A stretch of 64,000 bases of DNA from Archaeoglobus neptunius (GTDB taxonomy: Archaea > Halobacteriota > Archaeoglobi > Archaeoglobales > Archaeoglobaceae), in NCBI RefSeq assembly GCF_016757965.1, contig NZ_JAEKIW010000002.1, forward strand, positions 124,001 through 188,000, read 5' to 3'. The notes below the pieces were generated by a model. It saw nothing but the letters and a program-made list of their open reading frames with translations. It made no database searches and was not told the DNA's origin. Of the stretch, positions 33,678 to 44,890 are shown piece after piece. Position 1 is the first letter of the stretch, and the number at the start of each line of letters is the position of its first letter. The position numbers and the translations under genes were made by a program.

Positions 33678-36232
33678 TGTTGAGGCTGCTGATCGCCGAC
33701 GACAATCCGGACGACAGGTATCTGGCCATAAGAGAGATGAGAAAGTACTTTGGTGACGTGGAGGTAGTTGAAATTCTGTCAGAAGATGACCTCAAAAGGG
33801 CACTGGAAGACTTCGATTTTGACGTTGTTGTGACGGACTACAGGCTCAGATGGGGTACGGGATTCGATGTGTTGAATGCTGTTCGAAGAATTTCCCCTCA
33901 CATACCCGTCATCATGCTCACGCATACGGGTGATGAGACCACGGCGGTTGAAGCGATGAAAGCAGGATTTGATGACTATGTGTTGAAATCACCCAAGCAC
34001 ATCATCAAGCTTCCCGTAGCGGTGGAGGTGGCAATCGAGAAAAAGAAAAAGGAAAGGGAAGCCAGTGAATATCTGAGTAAACTGCAGGAGTACGAGAGAT
34101 TCTTCAAAAATGCGAAGGATCTCTTCTTCATTCTGGATACGAAAGGCAGGTTTATTGAGGTAAACCCGAAGTTTGCCGAAATGCTGGGATACGAGCTGAA
34201 AGAGGTAATGGGCAGTAATTCCAGAAAGCTCGTGCATCCGGAGGATCTGGACAGGCTGAGGGAATTTTTCAGAAGCGTGCTGAGGGGCGAGACGAAAAGA
34301 GATGAGTTCAGGTTTGTTACAAAGGACGGCAGAACACTCTGGCTGGAGATTCTGGAGTGGGCAGTATTCGAAAACGGCAGGCTGGTGAGGGTGGAGGGGG
34401 TCATCAGGGACATAACAGAGAGAAAGCAGATGGAGGACAGGCTGAAAGAGAGCGAGGAGAGATACAGAAGCGTTTTTGAAAACGTCGTTGCAGGAGTTTA
34501 CCGTACAACTCCGGATGGAAAGATAATTCTTGCCAATCCGTACATAGCGAAACTGCTTGGATACGAAAGCATCGAGGAACTTAAGGATAGAGATCTGAAC
34601 AAGGTGGAATTCTTCTGTCCCGGTTATGAGAGGGAGAAGTTCATCCGAGAACTTGAGGAGAAAGGGTATTATCTGGGCGAATCGTGCTGGATAAGAAAAG
34701 ACGGTTCCAGGGTATGGATACTTGAGAATACCGTTGCAATCAGGGATGAGAATCGAAGGACGAAATATTACGATGGGGTGGTTGTGGACATAACCAAGCT
34801 GAAGGAAAGCGAGGAGATGTTCAGGGTTCTGACGGAAAAATCGCTGGTTGGGGTGTATCTGATACAGGATGGAGTTTTCAAGTACGTTAACCCTAAAATG
34901 GCCGAGTTCTGGGGTTACAGCGTTGAGGAGCTGATAGGTAAATCTCCTCTCGAATTCATACACCCGGAAGATAGAGATCTCGTAAAAAGAAACATTGAGA
35001 GGAGAGTTAGAGGGGAGATAGATGCGGTAAACTACAAGATCAGAGTGGTAAGGAAGGATGGAGAGATCAGACTCAACGAGGTTTTTGGCGCCAGAATTAT
35101 CTACAGGGGCAGACCAGCAGTTATAGGAACTCTTATAGATATCACGGAGAGAGAAGAGCTCACCCGAAAGCTGAGGGAGAGTGAGAGAAAATACCGGGAG
35201 CTCTGGGACAATGCAAATGACAACTTTTTCATAATCACACCCGACGGTGTTTTCCTGGATGCAAATCAGGCTACGCTGAGCACGCTTGGTGTTTCCGCTG
35301 AAGATATCGGGAAGATAAAAGTGCAGGATGTGGTTGATGAGGACTTCGTGGAGCTTGTCAACAGAAGAATTAAGAGAATTCTGGAAACAAAAGAGCCACT
35401 GGAACCGATAGAGATGAGAGTCAAGAGAAGAGACGGCAGAAAACTCTGGATGGAGCTGCGTTCCCGTCCGATTATCGAGAATGGGAGGGTTGTGGCGATA
35501 CATGGAATTGCGAGAGACATAACGAAGAGGAAGGAATACGAGGAGGAGATAAAGAGGTTGAACAGACTCCTCAGAATAGTTAACGAGATAAACAACTTGC
35601 TGGTCAGAGAGAAGGATGAAGATGGTTTGATAAGGGCCATCGGAGAAAATCTCTCCAAGTTTTACACGCTGGTTTTTGTGGGTATTGCTAAAAATGGTGA
35701 GCTGAAATTCTATCCCTCTCTGGATAAACCCGCATGTGTGGAAGTGGCTTTATCCAGAAGAGAGGTTCTGAAGCTCAGTCCAAACAAACACGTCGCCGGA
35801 TGCAGATATCTGTCCATTCTGGGGCACCTCTTTGCCCTCGTGATACCGATGATTTATGATGAGAAAATTATGGGGATCATAACAATCCACTCGGACAGAC
35901 CCTTCACGGATGACGAGGTTGAGATTCTGACAACGCTGGCCAGAGATATCGCCTTTGCTATGAATGCGTTAAGGCTTGAGGAGGAGAAATTTCTCGCTTA
36001 CACCCAGATTGAAAGCAACATAGAGCAGTTTGCAATTCTTGTCGACCACATCCGCAATCCACTCGCAGCCTTAAGTCTGATTGCGGAGATTGAAATTAAG
36101 GATGAAAACGTTAAGGAAAAAATTTTGTCCCAGCTAAGGAGGGTTGAGGAAGTTCTGAAGAGACTTGATGAGGGGTGGCTGGAGTCGGAGAAGGTACGGG
36201 AGTTTCTGAGAAAAACATGGGAAAAAAGTTAG
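33674..36232 (+). CDS. REC-PAS-PAS-PAS-PAS-GAF protein with HisKA-like end but no ATPase
   Basis: 852 residues. Receiver (~1-125; IADDNPDD, VVVTDYRL, MLTHTGDE, DYVLKSP), four PAS domains (~135-255, 260-380, 385-500, 510-625), a GAF domain (~640-770) and a C-terminal helix pair with LVDHIRNPLAAL, an H-box like that of histidine kinases. The protein ends there: no HATPase domain follows. It may be a phosphotransfer or dimerisation partner of the upstream kinase. Start GTG 33674 or ATG 33677. The stop overlaps that of the convergent CoA-transferase gene. Confidence 0.88.
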   Translation: MMLRLLIADDNPDDRYLAIREMRKYFGDVEVVEILSEDDLKRALEDFDFDVVVTDYRLRWGTGFDVLNAVRRISPHIPVIMLTHTGDETTAVEAMKAGFDDYVLKSPKHIIKLPVAVEVAIEKKKKEREASEYLSKLQEYERFFKNAKDLFFILDTKGRFIEVNPKFAEMLGYELKEVMGSNSRKLVHPEDLDRLREFFRSVLRGETKRDEFRFVTKDGRTLWLEILEWAVFENGRLVRVEGVIRDITERKQMEDRLKESEERYRSVFENVVAGVYRTTPDGKIILANPYIAKLLGYESIEELKDRDLNKVEFFCPGYEREKFIRELEEKGYYLGESCWIRKDGSRVWILENTVAIRDENRRTKYYDGVVVDITKLKESEEMFRVLTEKSLVGVYLIQDGVFKYVNPKMAEFWGYSVEELIGKSPLEFIHPEDRDLVKRNIERRVRGEIDAVNYKIRVVRKDGEIRLNEVFGARIIYRGRPAVIGTLIDITEREELTRKLRESERKYRELWDNANDNFFIITPDGVFLDANQATLSTLGVSAEDIGKIKVQDVVDEDFVELVNRRIKRILETKEPLEPIEMRVKRRDGRKLWMELRSRPIIENGRVVAIHGIARDITKRKEYEEEIKRLNRLLRIVNEINNLLVREKDEDGLIRAIGENLSKFYTLVFVGIAKNGELKFYPSLDKPACVEVALSRREVLKLSPNKHVAGCRYLSILGHLFALVIPMIYDEKIMGIITIHSDRPFTDDEVEILTTLARDIAFAMNALRLEEEKFLAYTQIESNIEQFAILVDHIRNPLAALSLIAEIEIKDENVKEKILSQLRRVEEVLKRLDEGWLESEKVREFLRKTWEKS

Positions 36233-37530
36233 ATGATCCCGGCCTTTCTGAGATCTTCCAGATCCTCCCTCCCAAGTCCCAGCAGATTGTGGTAGACAAG
36301 ATAGTTGTTCTCTCCCTTCTCCTTCCCGAGCCATTTGAGCTTGTAGGGAGTTTTGCTCAATCTCCAGGGAGTGACAGGAACTAGCAAGTTCTGGTATTTT
36401 GCATCCCGGTAGATGCGGAACAGGTATTTATCCCACCAGAACCCGTCCTCAAGCACCTCTCTGGGTGTCATGACCTTGGCGTAGATCGCTACACCCTCCC
36501 TGCCCTCATCCTTCCACCTGACCATTCTCTCTGCCAGCTCCCTGAATGTGAACTTCTTTATTGCGTTCTGTACATCCCTGTAGGCCTGTTTCTGCTTTTC
36601 AAGTGGAATCCTGTCGAAAACTGTGGGGTACTTTTCCATCAGATGCTCAGCTTCGATCTGCGTAACCAGAGCTTTGAAGTTCGCATCCGTGTAGCCCGAG
36701 GCAAAGGCGTACCCGTCTTTGATCTCATAAAATGCATAGCTGAATACTCCGGAATCGAGAGGGAGAAAACCTTCAAGAGGCTCATTGAAGGCGTGGGGAA
36801 ATATAAGATGCATTCCTATCTTGTTAATTGCCTCGGTTGAGGTTACGTCAATCATCTGTCCCTCTCCCGTTCTGGCACGGTAAATCAGGGCAAGCAAAAC
36901 ACCACATGCCCCCCACATTCCGGCATAGTGGTATGCCATCCAGAAGCCGGGAGCTGTGGGCAGATTGTATGGCTCTCCGGCTTCGGGCAGCTCTTTGGTC
37001 ATGTACATGTATCCGGATTCGGCAAGACCGAGAAGATTTGAATCCGGAATGTTGGCGAACTCCCTCGCTCTAGGCCCGAACTGACCGTGGGATGAGAATG
37101 CCAGATAGATCAGTCCGGGATTTATTTCTCTAAGCTGCCTGTACCCCAGCTCGTTCTCATCCATCCAGCCCGGCGGGAAGGACTCAATCAGAACGTCCGC
37201 TCTGCTTACCATTTTCTTTAAAAGTTCTCTACCTTCTTCTTTTTCCAGATTCAGCGTTATGAACATCTTATTTCTCGTTTCAATAAGAAAATCGAGTCCT
37301 GTATTCCTGAAATAAAATTCTCCGAAAGGTGTTACCTCCCTCAGGGGGTCCCCGTCTGGAGGCTCTATCTTTATAACCTCCGCTCCAAGCTCGGCGAGAA
37401 TGGATGAGGCAAACATCGCTGATGGACTTGCCACACTCACATCCAGAACTCTCAGCCCATCGAGTGCATCATCCTTAAATTTTGCCTCCTCGGGGTTGGT
37501 AATCATCCTTGCGTATTCCCTCCAGTCCAT
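36229..37530 (-). CDS. CaiB/BaiF family III CoA-transferase
   Basis: About 433 residues. Family landmarks: LDGLRVLDVSVASPSAMFASSILAELGAEVIKIEPPDGDPLR at the N-terminus, the catalytic-Asp region of family III near SNLLGLAESGYM, and RTGEGQMIDVTSTEA. ATG 37530 is preferred because GGTGAT precedes it at the right distance; ATG 37536 overlaps the previous stop. Together with the next-listed paralogue it probably forms a heteromeric transferase moving CoA between organic acids (inference, as in BbsEF). Confidence 0.9.
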   Translation of the reverse strand: MDWREYARMITNPEEAKFKDDALDGLRVLDVSVASPSAMFASSILAELGAEVIKIEPPDGDPLREVTPFGEFYFRNTGLDFLIETRNKMFITLNLEKEEGRELLKKMVSRADVLIESFPPGWMDENELGYRQLREINPGLIYLAFSSHGQFGPRAREFANIPDSNLLGLAESGYMYMTKELPEAGEPYNLPTAPGFWMAYHYAGMWGACGVLLALIYRARTGEGQMIDVTSTEAINKIGMHLIFPHAFNEPLEGFLPLDSGVFSYAFYEIKDGYAFASGYTDANFKALVTQIEAEHLMEKYPTVFDRIPLEKQKQAYRDVQNAIKKFTFRELAERMVRWKDEGREGVAIYAKVMTPREVLEDGFWWDKYLFRIYRDAKYQNLLVPVTPWRLSKTPYKLKWLGKEKGENNYLVYHNLLGLGREDLEDLRKAGII

Positions 37531-37535
37531 ATTCA

Positions 37536-38885
37536 TCACCATATGAACACGGGGTCTTTTTCGTAATCGAAGTCCTTCGGGGGCCTTCTTCCGATGAAAT
37601 CTGCCCAGTAACAGATCACACCCTCTCTGATAAGCTCTTCAATCTCTTCCTCGCTCAGGCCAAGAAGTTTTTTGAAAATGTATCTGTTGTGGTATCCGAC
37701 AGGTGTGCCAACCCATTTTATCCTTCCCGGCGATTTGCTGAGCTTTGCCGGGCTTCCTGCGGCAACCATTTTCCCGTACACCGGATCATCAAAGACCCAG
37801 ACACTTCTTCTTGCTCTGAGATGCTCATCCTCGTAAACCTGCTTGCTGTCTCTCACCTCTCCGGCAGAAAAGCCGTATTCCCTCGCCATCCGTAGTATCT
37901 CATCAAGGTTTTTCTGTTTGCACCACTCGGCAACCATTCTGTCTATCTCATCTGCATTCTCCTTCCTCAGCCTCTGAGAGGTTCTGGAGAACCTTTCATC
38001 CTCCATAAGGTCCTCCCTGTCCATCGCTCTGCAGAGTCTTCTGAACTCCTCCGTTGTCAGGGTTGAGATTACGACAAGCCTTCCATCGGCGGTTCTGTAC
38101 ATGTTTGCCGGAGCTATACTCGGATCTCTGTTTCCCATCCGTTTTCTATCCTTTCCCTTCAGGTGTGTGTACGTGAAGACCGATCCCATAACCCTCAGGA
38201 AAGTTTCGACCTGAGCAACATCGATGTACTGCCCTTCTCCGGTCTTCTCCCTGTAGTACAGTGCCGCAAGAACGGACATGAATCCGGCGGTTGCGGCAAT
38301 CAGGTCTCCGGGATATGAAGGCAGTCTAAGCGGAACTCTACCTTCATAACCGCTCACCGCAGCGGCACCACTCATTGCCTGTCCGCTTGCATCAAAACTC
38401 GGCCAGTTCCATCTCTCTCCCCACTGCCCGTAACCGCTGAGTGACAGGTAAATCAGGCGTGGATTCACCTCCTTCAGGTGTCTGTAGCTGAGTCCAAGCC
38501 TGTCCATGGTTCCCGGCACAAAATTTTCGAGAACGACATCACTCTTTTTTACGAGCCGCAGAAACAGATCTTTTCCCCTGGGATGCTTGAGGTTGAGAGA
38601 TGTGAAGTATTTGTTTCTCTGGCACCAGAGCACAGCACTTGATGCATCTTTCCAGAATCTCGCCCATGCATCCACACTCCTGACAAAATCGCCCATACCC
38701 GGTGGACTTCCGGGCATCTCAATTCTTATTACCTCAGCACCAAATTCTGCCAGAAGAGATCCAGCTTCAGGTCCAAAGAGGACCACGGTTAAATCCAGAA
38801 CCCGTACACCTTCAAGAGGTTCGGGCTTCTCGAATATTTTTTCCGGATCAAACTCCCTCTCTGCCCACTCAAAATATTCTAACAT
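37536..38885 (-). CDS. CaiB/BaiF family III CoA-transferase
   Basis: 449 residues. LEGVRVLDLTVVLFGPEAGSLLAEFGAEVIRIE, ENFVPGTMDRLGLSY, LIYLSLSGYG and KTGEGQYIDVAQVE are all typical. The catalytic Asp probably lies near WPSFDASGQAMSG. It is the first gene of a two-gene operon with the paralogue downstream (stop TGA shares bases with the next ATG). A TATA-like box on the minus strand at ~38900-38912 gives a near-leaderless start. Divergent from a symporter operon. Confidence 0.91.
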   Translation of the reverse strand: MLEYFEWAEREFDPEKIFEKPEPLEGVRVLDLTVVLFGPEAGSLLAEFGAEVIRIEMPGSPPGMGDFVRSVDAWARFWKDASSAVLWCQRNKYFTSLNLKHPRGKDLFLRLVKKSDVVLENFVPGTMDRLGLSYRHLKEVNPRLIYLSLSGYGQWGERWNWPSFDASGQAMSGAAAVSGYEGRVPLRLPSYPGDLIAATAGFMSVLAALYYREKTGEGQYIDVAQVETFLRVMGSVFTYTHLKGKDRKRMGNRDPSIAPANMYRTADGRLVVISTLTTEEFRRLCRAMDREDLMEDERFSRTSQRLRKENADEIDRMVAEWCKQKNLDEILRMAREYGFSAGEVRDSKQVYEDEHLRARRSVWVFDDPVYGKMVAAGSPAKLSKSPGRIKWVGTPVGYHNRYIFKKLLGLSEEEIEELIREGVICYWADFIGRRPPKDFDYEKDPVFIW

Positions 38886-40913: not shown

Positions 40914-42143
40914 CTATTTTTTAATTTCGTATATTTTCCTGAGATTTTCAAGTTTCAGCACGTGCTCAACGTCTCCTCTCTCAATGACTCTGAAGGCATG
41001 CCTTACCATTTCCTTGTAGAACTCACAGTAGGGGCTTTTTGCATACATGGTTTTGTGCTCAGCATAGATTTCTGCAGGGCATGGAGAACCGCAGAGATGT
41101 CTGAATGTGCAGTCCATGCATTCCGGAATTTTTTCAACGATTCTTTCCCTGATGGGGCAGAAGATATCCAAAATTTCTTCCAGGTTGGATAGCATTGAAA
41201 TATCAGCCCTGAACTCATCCATGCCTATGAATTCGCCACATGGATAGATTCCATCAACACTTATGGCGAAAAACCTTCTTCCGGCGCCACAGGGAGAGAT
41301 GTCGCACTGAAGAACTCTGGAAGTTGGGGCGAACAACCCAAGGAGAACGTTTGCAAAATCTCCTATTACTATTCTTTCGCCTTCTCTGGTGTGCTCAATG
41401 GCCCGGTCAACAGCTTTTATGTAATACCTTTCAAAACCCTCAGGAGGTCTGAGCTCCCTACCACCCTCACTTGTCCCTCTTACCGGATTTGCAAGCAGTA
41501 TCTCAACCTTTCCTGCAAGAAAGTCGACCAGTCCATCGAGATGTCTGTAGTTGTACACGTTTACCGTTGCTATGATGTTCAGGTTCCTGTACCCATTGAA
41601 ATACTCCAGTGCATTTAAAACAGCCCTGTAGTGTCCCTCACCTCTGGTTGTTTCGTCAACCTCTCTGATGTGGCTGTCAAAGGAGATTCCCACACTCACG
41701 TTGTTTTTCATCAGAAATTCCGCATCCTCCTCGCTAAGAAGCGTTGCATTCGTCTGTATGCCGAATTTAAAATTGAACTCCTCAATTGCTTTGAAAATGA
41801 TATCTTTTACAATTAGAGGCTCCGCACCGTGAAATATCACCCACTCCACGTTCTCCAGCCTGTTAAGGATATCCTCGAGAGTTTCATAATCAAAACTTCT
41901 CCCTCTGGCCCTGATCTCACCGGGAATGTAACAGTAAGGACAGTTTCGGTTGCACTTCTCTGTGGGGTTGATGTAAACGGTGGTTGGATTGATGGCGAAT
42001 CTGTATCTCTCCATTTCCTTCAAAAACTTGTCTCTGTTCTTCTCAAAGAGTTTTTCTGCAATTTCGCTTCTATCTATAACCCAGAAACATGTGTTGGGGT
42101 CAAGATAAGCCTTAAAACTTCCAAGATCTATTTCCTCCAGCAT
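40914..42143 (-). CDS. Radical SAM/SPASM peptide maturase-like enzyme
   Basis: 409 residues. The radical SAM triad is CNRNCPYC (C64, C68, C71), followed by an unusual GAEPL motif (HGAEPLIVKD) also found in archaeal peptide-modifying radical SAM groups of the AF1577/Mhun_1560/CbpB kind. The C-terminal SPASM region has CDISPCGAG, DGIYPCGEF, CMDC and CGSPCP, enough Cys for two auxiliary clusters. ATG 42143 follows GGTGAT; the longer frame to 42218 would run through the upstream mini-ORF. It is the second gene after a 27-codon ORF, which is its candidate substrate. Confidence 0.88.
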   Translation of the reverse strand: MLEEIDLGSFKAYLDPNTCFWVIDRSEIAEKLFEKNRDKFLKEMERYRFAINPTTVYINPTEKCNRNCPYCYIPGEIRARGRSFDYETLEDILNRLENVEWVIFHGAEPLIVKDIIFKAIEEFNFKFGIQTNATLLSEEDAEFLMKNNVSVGISFDSHIREVDETTRGEGHYRAVLNALEYFNGYRNLNIIATVNVYNYRHLDGLVDFLAGKVEILLANPVRGTSEGGRELRPPEGFERYYIKAVDRAIEHTREGERIVIGDFANVLLGLFAPTSRVLQCDISPCGAGRRFFAISVDGIYPCGEFIGMDEFRADISMLSNLEEILDIFCPIRERIVEKIPECMDCTFRHLCGSPCPAEIYAEHKTMYAKSPYCEFYKEMVRHAFRVIERGDVEHVLKLENLRKIYEIKK

Positions 42144-42157
42144 GCCATCACCAAAAA

Positions 42158-42241
42158 TTAAAATGGTGAACTTTCGTCCAGAGCCACGTAATGCGTGAGC
42201 CCACCTTCCGGTTTGCACTCGTATCTTGCTGCTATCACCAT
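42158..42241 (-). CDS. 27-residue candidate precursor peptide for the radical SAM enzyme
   Basis: ATG at 42241-42239, TAA at 42160-42158. The peptide starts MVIAARYECKPEGG, ends DESSPF and has one Cys (C9), two Tyr (Y7, Y18) and two adjacent Gly. A TATA box at 42262-42270 is centred 25 bases from its ATG, so the transcript should begin exactly at this ORF. The radical SAM gene starts 14 bases after its stop. Position and size fit a RiPP-type precursor. The link is inferred; the peptide family is not recognised by eye. Confidence 0.6.
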   Translation of the reverse strand: MVIAARYECKPEGGLTHYVALDESSPF

Positions 42242-42261
42242 GATCGGGAGTATTCTGACCG

Positions 42262-42270
42262 CTTAAAAAT
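42262..42270 (-). promoter_or_regulatory. TATA box for the mini-ORF/radical SAM operon
   Basis: On the minus strand, ATTTTTAAG, centred 25 bases before ATG 42241. It fits a leaderless transcript that begins with the mini-ORF. Confidence 0.55.
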
Positions 42271-42312
42271 TGTTGCTTTTGTTATACACATGTAATACAA
42301 AAAAAGTTGAAT

Positions 42313-42612
42313 TTAAATAGCTCTTGAAACCTCTGAACTAAACCCGGCGCTCAGTGTTGCGAGTGCCACTGATATCAGCAGGCTTATATAGGTTAAGGGC
42401 AGGCCGATAAACCGTGAAAAGTCAAAAATGAAGAATGCGTAGGCGATGAACAGTGCCCACACCGTAACACCAAAGACGAAGCCCATGAGCATCCCTTTTC
42501 TCAGATTCTCGGTAGACCAGCCAATCAGTGCTGCGCCAAGCACTATTCCGGCCCAGTGGAGAATCGACAGTACTATACCTGCAGCAAATGCGACAATTCT
42601 AGCCAAATTCAA
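42313..42612 (-). CDS. Small membrane protein, 99 residues
   Basis: Three membrane helices by eye (residues ~5-30, 40-65, 70-95) with charged turns. Not recognised. It overlaps the 3' end of the penicillin-acylase-like gene by 14 bases, so it is in that operon and may be expressed with it. The role is unknown. Confidence 0.65.
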   Translation of the reverse strand: MNLARIVAFAAGIVLSILHWAGIVLGAALIGWSTENLRKGMLMGFVFGVTVWALFIAYAFFIFDFSRFIGLPLTYISLLISVALATLSAGFSSEVSRAI

Positions 42613-44890
42613 TTACATCACCTCTCAGAGAGAAATCACACACCTTGTACTCACCACTGGCCCACAAATCAAGTTGATCGCTGTAGTGTTTCGAGAGGAA
42701 AAATCCGGAGTTGCCGCCGGGGATAACGCAGTAATTTTTGTCAAAAGTGACGATCATTCTCCAGCTACTTCCGGCCTGCGTCCCCTCCCACCCGGTACGG
42801 CGGAAGTTGAAAACCGTGTAGTCAGAACCACTCATCGGCATCCGTCTGTAGTCAAAGAAGTTAACCACACCGCTGAACGCATGCTTTATGTTTAGAACAT
42901 TTAGATCGCCGTAAGTCTTGTAACCTTTCTCTTTTATCTCCTTAACAGCCATTTTCAGTGCCCTGGCTGCGATGTCGTCTCTATTTTCAACGGCTTCTGT
43001 TCTCTTGTCGTCGTACCACGGGCTATCGGGCGGGAGATTCTGAAGCACATAGAGTCGGGGATAAAAGCTATCATCAAGACCAGCGGAGTAGAATTCATCT
43101 CCGAATGTCTCGTTAACGAAGTACTTCAGCCACAGTGAGAATATCAGGGCCCCTTCCGAATCTTTCTCCATTCTGTAGTCCCAATTTTCAAGTTTTTCAA
43201 CGTAGTCCTTCAGACCAACCATTTTGTCCTTGGCTTCCAGTATGAACGGTACAAAGTTCTCTGCAACCTTGGAGTAGGTATCTCTTTGCATTTTCATGAA
43301 GTAGTTCGCATCAACTTTGTCTGCCGAGTCTAACATCTCGTAAATCCTCATTGCTCTGTAGGGATCGGCGAAGTACATGGAGTCTCCGAGGTAGTGTCTG
43401 TATCCGAAAACAACTCTCTGATTGGCTGTAGCCACGTAATCTGGATTTATAAGATGTGGAATCTCCTCGAATGGGATGAATCCCTCCCAGCTTGAAATTC
43501 CGTAGGGTTTGAATCCTTTCCACTCTCCATCACCATTGGAGCCGTTGAATATGATATTTCCGGGCACTTCTTTACCGTTTATGGTTCTTATGGGGTATTT
43601 TCCTGCCGGATAGTACATCGTGTTGCCGTAAATATCGGCGTAAACAACGTTCTGTGCGGGAACGTAGAATTCCTTCAGGCCCTTAATGAAATCCGACATG
43701 TTCCTCGCATAGTTGTAGTGATATATGGCCACCGCTTCCGGTGTTGCAGCCAGCCCCGTCCAGCTTACAGCAACCTTAATTCCGTACTTCTCCAAAACAG
43801 GTCCGTGAACTGTTTTCTCGACGATGACTTTCCTTTCCTCAAATCCATGGTCTGTTTTTACCCTTACCGTCTTCACAACTCTCTCGGGCTCAACCCATTT
43901 CCCCTTGTACAGGTACTTGCTTCCGTTCCAGACGTACTGGTAGAAATCAATGACATCTGCCCCTACATTTGTGAACCCCCAGGCGACGTTGTCGTTCCAT
44001 CCAATTACAATTACCGGGATTCCCGGAAAAGTCACTCCCCTGACGTTCCATCCTCTTAGCTGCGTGTGCATTTCGTACCAGATCGGTGGTGCGAAAAGGA
44101 GAAGATGCGGATCGTTTGCCAGCATGGGTTTGCCCGTTGTGGTCTTGTTACCACTGACTACCCAGTTGTTCGAACCGCCTGTCCCCTCAAACTTTGAAAC
44201 GTAATCAACAAACTTCTTGCTCAGGTTTGTTCGGATTATCGGGTAGTCATGTTTCAGTGATGGAGGGTAAAGTTCCAGTGCTTTTTCTCCGAGTTTTTGA
44301 ACTATCAGGGCTCTTTTCAGATCCCAGAAGTTTCCGGTCAAGCCCCAGGCTATAGATTTGCTTATCAACAGGGTATCCACCGGGGTCCAGTTGTAGGGTC
44401 TGTAATTTGCAAGCTTGAACTCTGGAGCTGGCTCACAGGTTCTGATGCAGTAATTTACACCATCGCTGTAAGCTTCGAGCAGTTCAGCGACTTTCGGATC
44501 CTTCTTCTTTATAAGCTTCCATGAAGCTTCTGCTGAGCTGATAAAGTCCATTTTAACGTGAAACTCATCGGAATCAAAGAATTTTTCCCCAAAAACCTCG
44601 CTCAGCTCGCCCTTCATCATTCTACGGTAGAGGTCCATCTGGAACATCCTGTCCTTTGCCTGAACGTAGCCGACGGCAAATGCAAGAGCTTTCTCGTCAT
44701 CCGCTGTTATGTGTGGAACGCCGTATTCATCGTAATAAACGGTTGCCCTTCCATAGGGACTGTTAACGTGCTTTACTGATGTTGTTTTCCATATACTACC
44801 GCTAAACGGTGCCAGGAGAGATATGTAGCTGTGGGCAATGGCGAAGAACACGAGGAGGAACACAAAAATTGCTACCGGCTTAAACTTCAT
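42599..44890 (-). CDS. Penicillin acylase family (Ntn-hydrolase) protein
   Basis: 763 residues, made as one chain. An N-terminal membrane anchor (~5-25) points it outside the cell. The alpha-chain region has GRATVYYDEYGVPHITADDEKALAFAVGY-type residues. The autoproteolysis site and N-terminal nucleophile Ser lie in TGGSNNWVVSGNKT (~235), followed by LANDPHL. The family cleaves amides such as beta-lactam side chains, acyl-homoserine lactones or other N-acyl compounds; the natural substrate here is unknown. A TATA-like box at ~44914-44922 gives a leaderless start. Confidence 0.9.
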   Translation of the reverse strand: MKFKPVAIFVFLLVFFAIAHSYISLLAPFSGSIWKTTSVKHVNSPYGRATVYYDEYGVPHITADDEKALAFAVGYVQAKDRMFQMDLYRRMMKGELSEVFGEKFFDSDEFHVKMDFISSAEASWKLIKKKDPKVAELLEAYSDGVNYCIRTCEPAPEFKLANYRPYNWTPVDTLLISKSIAWGLTGNFWDLKRALIVQKLGEKALELYPPSLKHDYPIIRTNLSKKFVDYVSKFEGTGGSNNWVVSGNKTTTGKPMLANDPHLLLFAPPIWYEMHTQLRGWNVRGVTFPGIPVIVIGWNDNVAWGFTNVGADVIDFYQYVWNGSKYLYKGKWVEPERVVKTVRVKTDHGFEERKVIVEKTVHGPVLEKYGIKVAVSWTGLAATPEAVAIYHYNYARNMSDFIKGLKEFYVPAQNVVYADIYGNTMYYPAGKYPIRTINGKEVPGNIIFNGSNGDGEWKGFKPYGISSWEGFIPFEEIPHLINPDYVATANQRVVFGYRHYLGDSMYFADPYRAMRIYEMLDSADKVDANYFMKMQRDTYSKVAENFVPFILEAKDKMVGLKDYVEKLENWDYRMEKDSEGALIFSLWLKYFVNETFGDEFYSAGLDDSFYPRLYVLQNLPPDSPWYDDKRTEAVENRDDIAARALKMAVKEIKEKGYKTYGDLNVLNIKHAFSGVVNFFDYRRMPMSGSDYTVFNFRRTGWEGTQAGSSWRMIVTFDKNYCVIPGGNSGFFLSKHYSDQLDLWASGEYKVCDFSLRGDVIEFG

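Follow-up and report, generated by a model that had tools for sequence, protein, structure and literature searches.

Small conserved peptides that are modified by a SPASM enzyme and serve a cofactor, not a secreted product, are known from PqqA/PqqE and from the mycofactocin pair MftA/MftC. A two-gene layout of this kind, with a peptide gene ahead of a radical SAM/SPASM maturase gene, is also described by the NCBIfam models TIGR04164 (cobo_pep, peptide CbpA) and TIGR04163 (rSAM_cobopep, maturase CbpB). The abbreviation 'cobo' may be a reference to cobalamin operons, and our literature search, which was thin on subscription journals, turned up no study of CbpA/CbpB, whether experimental or analytical. 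The window (the whole stretch of DNA analysed here, 64,000 nucleotides) carries one such pair, with the following features:

42158..42241, minus strand: cbpA, 27-aa modified-peptide precursor MVIAARYECKPEGGLTHYVALDESSPF (TIGR04164 match, conserved upstream of orthologues, purifying selection)
40914..42143, minus strand: cbpB, radical SAM/SPASM maturase of 409 aa (TIGR04163, PF04055, AlphaFold2 model, nearest solved folds)
42147..42152, minus strand: Shine-Dalgarno-like GGTGAT preceding cbpB (sequence; also before cbpB in 21/23 relatives)
42262..42269, minus strand: TATA-like box TTTTTAAG (sequence; TATA-like box also in 23/23 relatives)
42279..42300, no strand assigned: operator-like inverted repeat TTGTATTACatgtGTATAACAA, 37 nt ahead of the cbpA ATG (pattern search)

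The peptide gene was found just as the earlier note had described it: 27 codons with a single Cys (position 9), two Tyr and a GG at positions 13-14, and a TAA stop (42160-42158) that lies 14 bases before the cbpB ATG at 42143. The peptide matched TIGR04164, 'modified peptide precursor CbpA', with 51.5 bits (E = 4.9e-14, residues 2-24 on model positions 1-24; curated cut-off 35 bits), and the maturase matched TIGR04163 with 506.6 bits (curated cut-off 375). The pair is thus a member of an already named family, and the idea that the system was undescribed had to be given up, since curated models cover both genes. Among the maturase relatives named earlier (AF1577/Mhun_1560/CbpB), the CbpB assignment was correct, while TIGR04083 (Mhun_1560 type; 83.4 against a cut-off of 300) and TIGR04084 (78.4 against 225) were rejected. 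The score against the mycofactocin model was 49.5, for a cut-off of 265.

CbpB contains the radical SAM motif CxxxCxxC (C64/68/71) and a full set of SPASM cysteines (C280, C285, C302, C342, C345, C351, C355 and C373). All of these residues were invariant among 44 CbpB sequences, except for C345, which was kept in at least 90% of them; CbpB therefore has both the CxxxCxxC and the auxiliary-cluster cysteines of a SPASM radical SAM peptide maturase. The AlphaFold2 model of CbpB had a mean pLDDT of 94.5, and the nearest solved folds were those of the thioether-forming maturase CteB and of anSME (anaerobic sulfatase maturase). Given these folds, a thioether to Cys9 is plausible.

We detected a cbpB orthologue in 23 genomes of a 60-relative sample, with cbpA just upstream in 23/23, a strongly favourable outcome of the test that the earlier note had set (a conserved short ORF upstream of the maturase orthologues). 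A model search found the peptide in 31 out of 295 genomes of the phylum, and a scan of GTDB species genomes returned 473 related loci, 80 of which were retained. The archaeal loci retained belonged to Archaeoglobales, Methanophagales, Hydrothermarchaeota and Bathyarchaeota, and the bacterial ones chiefly to Nitrospirota and Omnitrophota, with others in Thermodesulfobacteriota, Planctomycetota and further groups. Judging from the named loci, the genome of the window falls within Archaeoglobaceae. cbpA was present in nearly all loci of the scan, archaeal and bacterial, and lay directly upstream of cbpB on the same strand in all archaeal orthologues and most bacterial loci. A recognisable cbpA was lacking in L115, L133, L135 (where the contig starts close by), L148, L158, L141 and L150; in L141 and L150, both Thermodesulfobacteriota, none was recognised within 6 kb of cbpB. 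Separately, the cbpA of one Archaeoglobaceae MAG (L083, about 190-265; L056) has an apparent one-base frameshift between the Cys and GGLTH, as in a pseudogene or an assembly error.

Across 55 distinct CbpA peptides, the Cys, Gly, Leu, [ST] and His were invariant, the Tyr/Phe that follows was constant, and the Cys-to-His spacing was 8-11. In most close pairs pS was about 0.45-1.0 and pN 0.02-0.17; judging by this pattern, cbpA is under strong purifying selection. Since the peptide accompanies every orthologue in the 60 relatives, matches a curated model and has pN far below pS, cbpA is not a chance ORF, and these lines of evidence together support a genuine pairing of a peptide gene with a SPASM maturase. 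From adjacency and conservation, CbpA is very likely the substrate of CbpB. A short ORF immediately upstream of an enzyme gene might instead be an attenuator-type regulatory leader for a maturase that acts on another protein, but what is kept from archaea to bacteria is the amino-acid sequence, with its low pN, and a curated peptide family exists (TIGR04164); moreover, the distance between cbpA and cbpB ranges from about 5 to more than 300 nt among loci, unlike an attenuator. We regard a leader role as extremely improbable.

The signals around the two genes differ in a consistent way. The centre of the TATA-like box is about 25 nt ahead of the cbpA ATG, so a leaderless start of the cbpA mRNA is expected. 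Among the 23 Archaeoglobaceae copies, a TATA-like box was present 20-40 nt before the peptide ATG in all 23, a Shine-Dalgarno site was absent before the peptide gene in 21 and present before the maturase gene in 21. By these signals, cbpAB is arranged in the archaeal manner, with a leaderless gene in first place and an internal gene that has its own Shine-Dalgarno site, and both the TATA spacing and the Shine-Dalgarno pattern speak for the leaderless cbpA that had been suggested earlier.

The inverted repeat TTGTATTACatgtGTATAACAA sits upstream of the cbpA TATA box. A pattern search with the consensus TTGTAWTAC-N4-GTAWTACAA, allowing up to two mismatches, gave three occurrences in the genome of the window, before cbpA, cobT and an RHH regulator gene, and none for the control pattern. 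The sites and genes outside the window are:

L162:1501-1522: second operator site, before cobT on another contig; gap to the ATG 37 nt, identical to that of cbpA
L162:450-1463 (G000:C1), minus strand: archaeal cobT (TIGR00303, 425.9 bits)
L186:1971-1992: third operator site, before the RHH regulator gene, 2 nt ahead of the gene start
L186:1114-1968 (G000:C2), minus strand: RHH-type regulator, 285 aa (RHH domain; family with a sub-threshold AIRS-like domain)

The regulator family was spotted in Methanophagales, where its gene is divergent from cbpA; it combines an RHH domain with an AIRS match under the Pfam cut-off. The operator lies only 2 nt before the regulator gene, which suggests autoregulation. 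In the relatives, most operator sites again precede cobT, cbpA or the RHH regulator gene; sites without any of the three alongside were found in L168, L176 and once in G017, and a site in L166 is near a cobT frame. With up to three mismatches and a gap of 37-41 nt, the operator precedes cbpA in about 17 archaeal loci. Operator and regulator were both present in 13 of the 23 genomes with cbpB, both absent in 9 and in disagreement in one (Fisher 1.2e-5, with shared ancestry ignored). An archaeal cobalamin regulon predicted without a known factor has been mentioned (PMC10746257), and the RHH/AIRS-like protein may be an archaeal cobalamin regulator.

No B12 genes were found near cbpAB in the window itself or in most Archaeoglobaceae, and no neighbour other than the cbpA-cbpB pair was shared by 21 archaeal orthologue loci in up to 20 kb around. 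The penicillin-amidase-type, sodium symporter and CoA-transferase-like genes nearby were for this reason not counted as part of the system. Upstream of cbpA, window positions 42313-44890 (minus strand) hold a penicillin-amidase family gene (PF01804, 681 bits) and then a 99-aa hydrophobic ORF, which are not conserved beside cbpAB. At 36229-38885 (minus strand), two adjacent, mutually related ORFs of 437 and 449 aa look like family III CoA-transferases by sequence inspection.

The wider set of loci gave a different neighbourhood. We clustered the genes around 79 loci and scored cobalamin neighbours within 6 kb: at least one B12 gene was present in 34 out of 44 bacterial cbpAB loci and three or more in 31 out of 44, some of the neighbour identities being under the curated cut-off of their own best model. 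Neighbour representatives included CbiM, CbiQ, CbiO, CbiX/CbiC, CbiD, CbiE/T, CbiF, CbiG, CbiA and CbiB, as well as CobD, CobQ, CobS, CobT, CobU and CobC. The gene cbiD adjoins cbpB in 14 loci, cbiO is immediately upstream in 6 loci, and 9 loci from two groups far apart have cobT as the immediate neighbour of cbpB, 5 archaeal (Methanophagales and Methanolliviera-type archaea) and 4 from Omnitrophota. In Nitrospirota cbpAB adjoins the cobalt transporter genes cbiMNQO, and in two Archaeoglobus-type genomes it stands beside a CbiX-like gene. Lone CbiO matches in archaeal loci did not count as evidence, because this ATPase belongs to a large superfamily. The B12 neighbours vary by lineage (cobT, cbiD, cbiO, cbiA, cbiB), so gene order names no single B12 step. 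We also observed, near cbpB, a CbiX-like protein that is extended at its N-terminus by a Cys-rich stretch (L128:9245-9862) and whose cluster recurs in L113, L131, L144 and L158 and in the Archaeoglobus-type genomes L084 and L093.

Four bacterial loci without a B12 gene nearby, namely L114 (Syntrophobacterales), L120 (Oligoflexia), L138 (Planctomycetota) and L159 (Chloroflexi), have a cobalamin riboswitch (RF00174, 60-75 bits) directly upstream of a stand-alone cbpA, and additional cobalamin riboswitches were found in loci where cbpAB stands among B12 genes. cbpAB thus shares control or location with cobalamin genes through operons, RF00174 riboswitches and the operator common with cobT. The purpose, given as unknown in the earlier note, is narrowed by these observations to cobalamin metabolism, and a role of cbpAB in cobamide metabolism is well supported by genomic context. 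A SPASM maturase with a small precursor is also a common RiPP layout, and the product could be a secreted antimicrobial or signal near B12 genes by happenstance. Against this, nothing beyond cbpA-cbpB is conserved in the 21 archaeal loci, B12 genes, and not peptide transporters, proteases or immunity genes, are what recurs beside the pair in the wider scan, the CbpA core is strongly conserved and not diversified, and control is by a B12 riboswitch and operator; we consider secretion very improbable. The earlier remark that no dedicated transporter or protease is adjacent holds across the family, and an intracellular product fits this absence.

CbiC served to recognise genomes that make corrin de novo. 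It was present in 23/23 genomes with cbpB and in 17/37 without (Fisher 4e-6; p = 0.001 within the family), in a test that, like the other phyletic tests here, ignores shared ancestry. cbpB never occurred in genomes that have cobT/cobS without CbiC, and CobS had no association with cbpB. CbiD was misleading as a de novo marker, as three cbpB-containing genomes of one genus lack CbiD yet have CbiC; given this CbiC, we abandoned the notion of cbpAB in genomes limited to salvage.

The strict co-occurrence of cbpB with CbiC, together with the adjacency to cobalt-uptake genes (cbiMNQO in Nitrospirota) and to the CbiX-like gene in the two Archaeoglobus-type genomes, and with the invariant Cys and His of CbpA, favours a role in cobalt handling: the modified Cys/His peptide would bind Co(II) and hand it over to the cobaltochelatase CbiX, or guard against mis-metallation. 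The Archaeoglobaceae operator is, however, at cobT, none of the three sites found in the genome of the window belongs to a cobalt-uptake or chelatase gene, and the cobT adjacency recurs in unrelated lineages. Cobalt handling seems to us a doubtful reading, with somewhat less than a one-in-three claim on our belief.

CobT activates the lower-ligand base, and the modified peptide might provide, carry or help to make that base, in place of BzaF/BzaAB of other anaerobes. A second ThiC-family gene, a candidate BzaF, was found in none of the 23 relatives with cbpB and in 11 of the 37 without; restricted to CbiC-containing genomes, the counts were 0/23 and 6/17 (p = 0.003), ancestry being ignored in both comparisons. 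It was likewise found in 0/37 of the mostly bacterial cbpB-containing genomes reached via the loci (L112 is apparently the same genome as G057), and it was present in 32 out of 148 sampled Nitrospirota, an imperfect control as that sample was not sorted by cbpB status. The lower-ligand role is favoured by this apparent exclusion, by the operator that in the window's genome is common only to cbpA, cobT and the regulator gene, and by the cobT adjacency that recurs in Methanophagales, Methanolliviera-type archaea and Omnitrophota. The Methanocaldococcus jannaschii enzyme, an archaeal CobT of this class, can use either 5-hydroxybenzimidazole or adenine (PMC9561151). On the other side, the lineages are non-independent, the Archaeoglobaceae without cbpB also carry a single ThiC, and the confinement of cbpB to CbiC-containing genomes is not predicted by a pure lower-ligand role. 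The exclusion argument is weaker in bacteria because bza genes are rare overall (88/10,591 genomes; PMC6461909). The anti-correlation between ThiC copy number and cbpB is suggestive and supports the lower-ligand role rather than proving it; we hold that role as a tentative possibility, slightly favoured over cobalt handling, with the remaining probability given to some other cobamide-linked role.

Taken together, we think it probable that CbpB modifies CbpA to give an intracellular product that serves cobamide synthesis, with transcriptional control shared with cobT via the operator in the window's genome. In the proposed mechanism, a leaderless mRNA would begin at the ATG of cbpA and run on into cbpB, which would be translated from its own Shine-Dalgarno site. 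CbpB, through its radical-SAM cluster and SPASM auxiliary clusters, would act on CbpA in the region of the invariant Cys, of the invariant GL[ST]H[YF] segment or of both; a thioether or other ring joining the two would be the likeliest product. The modified CbpA would not be exported; its role would be intracellular, in the making of cobamide (vitamin B12). Transcription of cbpAB would be tuned jointly with cobT and the regulator's own gene through the common operator, which the RHH-type regulator probably binds. The most specific form of the proposal goes further: a ribosomally made peptide, modified by a radical SAM enzyme, would belong to the B12 biosynthesis machinery of archaea and bacteria and would take over from the ThiC paralogue (BzaF/BzaAB) in supplying or carrying the lower ligand. 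We judge this form unlikely.

The evidence places cbpAB in the cobamide metabolism of deep archaeal and bacterial branches, and not among secreted natural products. The pair is named in databases, and its functional link to B12 is the new content; an 'unknown RiPP' becomes a testable question on the role of a modified peptide in B12 synthesis. If the proposal is true, a gap would be filled in a much-studied cofactor pathway by a peptide that serves a vitamin, not attack or signalling. The findings also suggest an archaeal B12 regulator (RHH and AIRS-like domain) with a defined operator.

Compared with known systems, the pair of the window has the same two-gene layout as the TIGR04163/TIGR04164 family, with both cut-offs passed and no sequence difference, and it stands alone, leaderless and with an operator common with cobT. 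TIGR04083 and TIGR04084 share the superfamily and domain layout of CbpB, which scores far under their cut-offs and is not a member. CteB (SCIFF maturase; PDB 5wgg/5why) shares the radical SAM and SPASM architecture and a Cys-containing substrate, and it is the nearest solved structure to CbpB by sequence (E 5e-28, about 19% identical) and by fold (TM about 0.7). PapB, the ranthipeptide maturase (NF047865), is alike in radical SAM, SPASM and a Cys in its substrate but was rejected as an assignment, with 90.6 bits for CbpB against a cut-off of 340. Unlike the substrates of CteB and PapB, CbpA has one Cys and is without a long leader. Finally, in contrast to PqqA/PqqE and MftA/MftC, CbpA/CbpB are not accompanied by a protease or by further tailoring genes, and the cofactor linked to them, cobamide, has its own known pathway.
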